Positions 58,065 through 59,866 of a stretch of 64,000 nucleotides of DNA are shown in pieces. The stretch lies in contig JAHBAS020000024.1 of the NCBI GenBank assembly GCA_018499965.2, positions 1 through 64,000 of the forward strand. Reading direction: 5' to 3'. This DNA comes from Candidatus Uhrbacteria bacterium (GTDB taxonomy: Bacteria > Patescibacteriota > Patescibacteriia > 2-12-FULL-60-25). The notes below the pieces were generated by a model. The model ran no database searches, had not been told where the DNA came from, and worked only from the letters and a program-made list of their open reading frames with translations. The translations under genes were made by a program, and so were the position numbers. How positions within the stretch are numbered: position 1 is the first letter of the stretch; each line of letters opens with the position of its first letter.

Positions 58065-58152
58065 GGAGAGGTCGCATAGTGGCCTAGTGCACTTGCTTGG
58101 AAAGCAAGCATACCGCAAGGTATCCAGAGTTCGAATCTCTGCCTCTCCGCCA
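58065..58152 (+). tRNA. tRNA-Ser (anticodon GGA), CCA encoded
   Basis: GGAGAGG acceptor pairs CCTCTCC; anticodon arm CTTGCTTGGAAAGCAAG; long variable arm; GTTCGAATC T-loop; GCCA end. Confidence 0.93.
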
Positions 58153-58920: not shown

Positions 58921-58930
58921 CGCTCCACTC

Positions 58931-58978
58931 AATGCCCTCTCCGGCTTCCGGACGAGGGCATTGGCATCGTTGACGAAG
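58931..58978 (+). repeat. 48-bp exact repeat copy 1: hairpin plus -35
   Basis: AATGCCCTCTCCGGCTTCCGGACGAGGGCATTGGCATCGTTGACGAAG. Confidence 0.95.
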
Positions 58979-58998
58979 TCTTAAAAAAACCATAAGAT
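58970..58998 (+). promoter_or_regulatory. Promoter TTGACG-N17-TAAGAT
   Basis: -35 lies in the repeat, -10 just outside it. Confidence 0.6.
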
Positions 58999-59076
58999 AC
59001 AATAATCATGCTCCACACGAAACGAATCGCAACGTGGTCCGGCTTCATCCACTCCTTTTTTATCCCTCTGCCCTAG

Positions 59077-59137
59077 TGGACAGGTTTTGATGTTCAAAAC
59101 CTCAAAATCTGTCCAGCTGGGACAGATTTTTTCTTTT
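59077..59137 (+). promoter_or_regulatory. Candidate transcription attenuator
   Basis: Terminator AAAATCTGTCC/GGACAGATTTT+TTCTTTT; competing 14-bp helix TGGACAGGTTTTGA/TCAAAATCTGTCCA. Confidence 0.65.
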
Positions 59138-59167
59138 CCCACCCTTCTCTATACAGGTAGAACGATC

Positions 59168-59773
59168 ATGGAATATCGAGCTGTACAGAACCGATCTACG
59201 TTCATTCTCGACGACCTGCAGTTGCCAATCTCGCACGAAGAAGCTATTCGCATCTTAAAAGAAAAAGGCTTCGTCTTTCTCGATATCGACATCGTGAAGC
59301 TTGCTCGATCATGCATCAAGACTTCACGGTATCGACGCGGAGCCAAACCATCCGAAGCCCCTGCAGTAGTAGATTGTTCGAGCTTCATCAAATGGCTCTA
59401 TGGTGAATGCGGTATCTGGCTGCCACGTCGATCCATCCAACAACGAGCATACGGTGAACACATCGACCTTCATGCACTCATGCCTGGCGATATCATCTTC
59501 ACCTCTGGACATATCGATTACTATGACCACGATCCGACAGACGGCGTAGGACACGTCGGTATCTATACCAAAAACCAAACCGTCATTCATGCCGCCAATA
59601 AAAAAGAACATGTCATCGAAACCGAACTCGCGCGCTTTATCAAAGGTAATGCCTTTCGTGGAGCGAGGCGATACATCCCCCAAAACAAAGAAGTACGAAC
59701 CGTTCAAGCGCCAAAAGAAAGAGAAATCGAAATCGCAAACGATCTTCGATGGATAATCCTGCAGTCACTTTAA
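59168..59773 (+). CDS. NlpC/P60-family hydrolase-like protein
   Basis: VVDCSSFIKWLYGECGIWLPRRSIQQ...LMPGDIIFTSG...GVGHVGIYTKNQTVIHAA. Confidence 0.85.
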   Translation: MEYRAVQNRSTFILDDLQLPISHEEAIRILKEKGFVFLDIDIVKLARSCIKTSRYRRGAKPSEAPAVVDCSSFIKWLYGECGIWLPRRSIQQRAYGEHIDLHALMPGDIIFTSGHIDYYDHDPTDGVGHVGIYTKNQTVIHAANKKEHVIETELARFIKGNAFRGARRYIPQNKEVRTVQAPKEREIEIANDLRWIILQSL

Positions 59774-59798
59774 ACGCCTGCATGAGCCACCCCTCCTT

Positions 59799-59846
59799 AA
59801 TGCCCTCTCCGGCTTCCGGACGAGGGCATTGGCATCGTTGACGAAG
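59799..59846 (+). repeat. 48-bp exact repeat copy 2
   Basis: Identical to 58931-58978. Confidence 0.95.
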
Positions 59847-59866
59847 CGTCAAATTATCCTTAGGAT
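59838..59866 (+). promoter_or_regulatory. Promoter TTGACG-N17-TAGGAT
   Basis: Same architecture as copy 1. Confidence 0.55.

Follow-up and report, generated by a model that had tools for sequence, protein, structure and literature searches.

A probable leader-peptide attenuator ahead of folate-linked genes in Patescibacteria

Two exclusive folds before an NlpC/P60 gene

The window, a 64,000-nucleotide stretch of Candidatus Uhrbacteria DNA, carries an NlpC/P60 gene preceded by a promoter-like site, a short upstream open reading frame (uORF) and a series of RNA segments with alternative partners (Table 1). The protein scores 59.7 bits against PF00877 (cut-off 23) and its catalytic residues, Cys70 and His129, are invariant, placing it in the NlpC/P60 (C40) family; its AlphaFold model has a mean pLDDT of 95.9, and the PDB matches are C40/NlpC domains. 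A preliminary description had called the gene peptidoglycan-hydrolase-like. Profile and model bear this out at the level of the fold only, no signal peptide is apparent in the protein by eye, and the regulon that it shares points instead to folate, as described below.

Table 1. Features of the leader and the gene behind it (window coordinates)
Feature	Coordinates	Strand	Basis and remarks
Sigma-70-like promoter, TTGACG-17-TAAGAT	58970..58998	+	Consensus scan, 9/12 matches; predicted TSS ~59004-59008
uORF, 22 codons + TAG, MLHTKRIATWSGFIHSFFIPLP	59008..59076	+	Read from the sequence; peptide core common to 46 loci
Conserved core Thr-Trp-Ser-Gly-Phe, codons 9-13	59032..59046	+	Conservation over 46 leaders, third positions variable
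Segment 0 (last uORF codons + stop)	59067..59076	+	Partners 59117-59126 in the antiterminator; MFE of 59063-59137, covarying columns
Segment 1 (antiterminator 5' strand)	59077..59090	+	Under the ribosome footprint at the uORF stop; folding and covariation
Segment 2	59094..59102	+	9 bp with segment 1; folding and covariation
Segment 3	59102..59115	+	Partner is segment 1 (antiterminator) or, as 59104-59114, segment 4 (terminator)
Segment 4 (59120-59130) + U-rich tail (59131-59137)	59120..59137	+	3' part of intrinsic terminator; inverted repeat, terminator scan, covariation
NlpC/P60 (C40) gene, 201 aa, cytosolic-looking	59168..59773	+	PF00877, invariant residues, PDB matches

The sequence at 58928-58998 recurs at 59796-59866 as a 71-nt direct repeat (87% identical) comprising a hairpin and a promoter-like site. 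As these are its only two copies in the genome, the NlpC/P60 gene and the next gene both start behind it. A gene for tRNA-Ser(GGA), which reads TCC and TCT, lies at 58065-58152, roughly 0.9 kb before the leader; the Ser11 codon of the uORF is TCC.

By itself the promoter call is weak, because consensus scans yield near-chance numbers of sites (7 in the region, 4.5 expected). The ATG of the uORF lies 9 nt after the predicted -10 box, so that the reading frame would be nearly leaderless, and its stop codon directly abuts segment 1. This uORF, the likely sensor, was absent from the preliminary description, which had proposed an attenuator alternating between 1:2 plus 3:4 and 1:3 pairing. All of those pairings are present. 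Segments 1 and 3 form a 14-bp helix with one GU pair (-19.8 kcal/mol); 59082-59090 pairs with segment 2 in a 9-bp hairpin (-8.4 kcal/mol); and the 3:4 hairpin is an 11-bp perfect inverted repeat (-13.5 kcal/mol) followed by TTCTTTT, which a terminator scan labels as terminator-like. Segment 0 also joins segment 4 (59067-59070 with 59123-59126, and 59072-59076 with 59117-59121), and thus the antiterminator is longer than first described. With segment 0 counted, the antiterminator state of the window leader RNA comes to -33.6 kcal/mol without a ribosome, versus -25.4 kcal/mol for the terminator state. Folding of the 163-nt leader beats 199 of 200 dinucleotide shuffles (z -3.1). No second copy of the leader was found elsewhere in the same genome by BLAST and pattern search.

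Both folds are conserved in relatives. Across eight homologous NlpC-type leaders, the 22-pair antiterminator has 94.8% of its cells paired and five pairs with two-sided changes, which 0/500 shuffles equalled. The 1:2 plus 3:4 state has 92.5% paired and six such pairs (again 0/500 shuffles), and slid controls score lower than the true alignment for both folds. Energies and covariation together show that terminator and antiterminator are mutually exclusive in the window leader, and they back the attenuator architecture proposed for this gene.

A peptide core shared by leaders of folate-linked genes

Homologous NlpC loci in other families of the class carry the same peptide core in different DNA. 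In all, we found the core T-W-S-(S/G)-F, with a start codon exactly 9 codons before the Trp, in 46 distinct Patescibacteria leaders, whose loci are related, so that counts over them are non-independent. Trp10, Ser11 and Ser or Gly12 are each present in 46/46, Phe13 in 43/46 and Thr9 in 42/46. The invariance of Trp10 and Ser11 is partly imposed, because both were built into every search pattern; the fairer evidence for conservation is the free third codon positions together with Phe13 in the NlpC and FolC2 sets. At Ser11, for example, the three codon positions have entropies of 0, 0 and 1.9 bits over the 46 leaders. Since third positions are free to vary, the peptide, not the RNA, is the conserved thing.

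The uORFs also resemble one another in how they begin. A Shine-Dalgarno (SD)-like word precedes 2/46 uORFs versus 26/44 main genes, a generous figure for the latter, as the SD-favouring start was chosen among several in frame. A -10-like hexamer lies 4-13 nt 5' of the uORF ATG in 20 of 38 leaders, where 7.6 would be expected from position alone. Among the first 39 leaders, 11 uORFs are 14 codons long, with the stop directly after residue 14, and the others span 17-27 codons.

A start-free pattern search of 380 genomes gave 24 matches, a raw count that is no evidence, because a reversed-pattern control matched at a comparable rate. Thirteen of the 24 were short uORFs by eye, mostly with a terminator after them, and in all 13 the distance from the start to the codon for Thr is exactly 24 nt. 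Searches that included the start codon produced few or no control matches and added further leaders. In the reverse test, the leader was present at 7 of 30 FolC2 loci of the class, with the start 9 codons before the Trp in 7/7. Pattern matches in viral contigs looked like chance, and we rejected a phage origin of the leader.

Directly behind the leaders lie genes for NlpC/P60, Vut_1 (a queuosine precursor transporter in NCBIfam), FGase, SHMT, FolB, FolC2-type ligases and a Pfam-less membrane family; one leader (L176) precedes a gene of no recognised kind. The same gene strings hold the FolC2-type F420_ligase, HPPK (FolK), SHMT, FolD and a DHFR_1/RibD_C protein, and SHMT-FolD and FolB-FolK sets occur among the leader-preceded genes. 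In E. coli, FolC2 of COG1478 has been shown to take the place of FolC (PMC1971073). This gene content suggests that the leaders mark a folate regulon in Patescibacteria.

For the NlpC gene, the folate link consists of the shared leader and one locus (L059) where FolC2 follows NlpC; the window's own genome gave no FolC2 match. On this basis, the gene may have a part in the metabolism or salvage of folate. Since gamma-D-glutamyl bonds are what NlpC enzymes cleave, a role on gamma-glutamyl folates is conceivable. At loci L194-L199, Vut_1 repeatedly stands directly before a FolC2-type ligase and may carry folate or pterin in those genomes. At three others (L189, L215, L231), the membrane family, which has no Pfam or NCBIfam match, precedes FolC2 behind the same leader and is a candidate folate transporter. 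The leaders would offer a clue to the function of several genes whose role is unclear, namely the cytosolic NlpC/P60, FGase, Vut_1 and the unnamed membrane family beside FolC2.

Ribosome position and the choice of fold

We modelled the ribosome in silico by masking its footprint and folding the RNA at equilibrium, ignoring kinetics. Without a ribosome, the window RNA is predicted to adopt the antiterminator, which is also the ribosome-free default in many long leaders; with a ribosome at the uORF stop, P(terminator) is at least 0.93. A leader counted as switching if placing the ribosome at codon 14 gave P(terminator) <0.1 and moving it to the stop gave >0.9. By this measure, among the 24 long leaders that have a terminator, 16 switch, against 0.62 expected on shuffling the intervening sequence, a comparison whose nominal probability should not be taken literally because the leaders are related. 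The modelled switch is absent in the other 8/24, and a clear terminator is lacking from most leaders of 14 codons. The distance from stop to terminator is mostly 16-39 nt.

Four computed results, namely peptide-level conservation of the uORF, folds that exclude each other and covary, a predicted fold that changes with the position of the ribosome, and the occurrence of the leaders at folate operons, together lead us to consider the leader likely to be a leader-peptide transcription attenuator, by which folate-linked genes would be expressed according to how a nearly leaderless uORF is translated. Unhindered translation would bring the ribosome to the stop, where it would cover segments 0 and 1, let the 3:4 terminator form and turn the gene off. 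A ribosome paused near the Thr-Trp-Ser-(Ser/Gly)-Phe core (codons 9-14), or a failure to initiate, would leave segments 0 and 1 to pair with 4 and 3, and the gene would be on. We infer that the pause falls at the core and that low folate is its cause, possibly via 10-formyl-THF and formylation of the initiator Met-tRNA; low folate would then bring about antitermination by way of the pause or of failed initiation. A pause at codon 14 would suit the long forms. In the 14-codon forms, more speculatively, the target of a ribosome detained at the stop codon could be a terminator close by, or Rho.

Candidate signals and their alternatives

Formylation of the initiator Met-tRNA is one candidate for the folate signal. 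Four points make this idea appealing: the uORFs have almost no leader, 70S initiation may depend more heavily on formylation (PMC7949028), fMet ranks among the main products of folate during Listeria infection (PMC10653936), and 23 of 26 leader genomes have an fmt match. When TWSxF stands at the peptidyl-transferase centre, a chain of 14 residues would place its N-terminal Met near the tunnel constriction, and an N-terminus left unformylated at low 10-formyl-THF could pause the ribosome there; alternatively, leaderless initiation could fail without fMet-tRNA. That the leader reads formylation in either way, as the folate signal of the regulon, is possible, if on balance doubtful. In 3/26 leader genomes no fmt match was found. 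One of them, a near-complete, AT-rich genome (G074), has its NlpC gene split into two frames (L020 and L029), and is neither proof nor refutation of the formylation idea.

A related reading, which we think rather unlikely, is that the uORF senses initiation and not arrest: low 10-formyl-THF would mean less formylated Met-tRNA, leaderless 70S initiation would fail and the RNA would fall back on the antiterminator, with the TWSxF core merely tuning speed or spacing. The lack of SD words, the ribosome-free default and the proposed weight of formylation in 70S initiation (PMC7949028) would all suit it. It leaves unexplained, however, the strong conservation of TWSxF and its fixed distance from the start, and several long leaders (L004, L036, L174) favour the terminator without a ribosome but disfavour it with one at codon 14.

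The leader may also bear some resemblance to TnaC-type arrest peptides, which have a short leader and a conserved Trp that acts through the nascent chain. Were a folate or pterin to bind nascent TWSxF in the tunnel and stall the ribosome, the conserved aromatic core would have a role, and so would the minimal length of 14 codons with a stop right after residue 14. Yet such stalling would switch folate genes on when folate is plentiful, an unusual direction, and we regard it as unlikely. Unlike TnaC, the TWSxF leader has another sequence, precedes other genes and uses an intrinsic terminator rather than Rho in its long forms.

In its RNA logic the leader matches the trp-type attenuators. Amino-acid leader attenuators (trp, his, phe, ilv and the Corynebacterium ilvB-II uORF; PMC10272879 and PMC11109978) likewise join a short uORF to an exclusive terminator and antiterminator, and there too the outcome depends on where the ribosome stands, with termination when it is at the stop. 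Starvation for Trp or Ser, stalling the ribosome at codon 10 or 11, would moreover agree with the invariance of Trp10 and Ser11. But the uORF has a single Trp codon, no codon runs and not the several codons for an operon's amino acid; Thr9, Phe13 and the start distance are conserved too; and the genes behind these near-leaderless uORFs are folate genes, none in a Trp or Ser pathway except SHMT. SHMT interconverts Ser and Gly. We therefore find ordinary amino-acid attenuation quite improbable.

The metabolite riboswitch or protein-controlled attenuator suggested in the preliminary description would account for mutually exclusive hairpins but is very improbable, given that what is conserved regulon-wide, at dozens of loci, is a coding uORF with variable third positions, in the window with its stop against segment 1, that hairpin sequences differ between gene families, and that, at gathering score, Rfam gave a tRNA as its only match in the window and no riboswitch, the THF riboswitch (RF01831) included. 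Searching class genomes for RF01831 gave 0/182, with the positive control likewise empty.

Two other candidates were rejected. Sensing of queuosine through NAY codons 3-6, read by Q-tRNAs and brought to mind by the Vut_1 annotation, does not fit leaders such as MLITKTTRTWSGF, which have no NAY codon before the Trp. MnmEG-type U34 modification at Lys8 (all AAA) does not fit either, as position 8 is not invariant.

Our search of the open-access literature yielded neither a leader peptide with TWSxF nor any attenuator of the leader-peptide kind in Patescibacteria. Closest among earlier proposals is the one for the Streptococcus fthC uORF (PMC11109978), which likewise stands with a terminator before a folate gene; its authors offer the speculation that levels of tRNA-fMet and initiation at the uORF are involved, a proposal similar to the initiation sensing considered above. 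That motif differs in being SD-led and confined to Streptococcus and one gene, and the passage on it describes no TWSxF peptide. The THF riboswitch also controls folate genes in cis, through an RNA aptamer and with no uORF. The TWSxF leader looks like an undescribed bacterial way to gauge folate and, if this is true, an uncultured phylum would do by translation what the THF riboswitch does elsewhere. The leader would also bring an old question, whether formylation of the initiator tRNA serves as a regulatory signal (Danchin 1973, as cited in PMC7949028), within reach of a test on a single short RNA.

L006 (G098) keeps the uORF and segments 0-1 and is without the terminator and segments 2-4. 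At L027 (G049), the NlpC homologue is a distant one, and the short ORF ahead of it (MKSIYSDNSFSSSLFLSKGRF) is different, with a terminator-like hairpin after it; this is possibly another leader type. At L128 (~1477, G093), the uORF begins 9 nt after the 3' end of an apparent tRNA gene, and thus maturation of the tRNA would leave the uORF with almost no leader.
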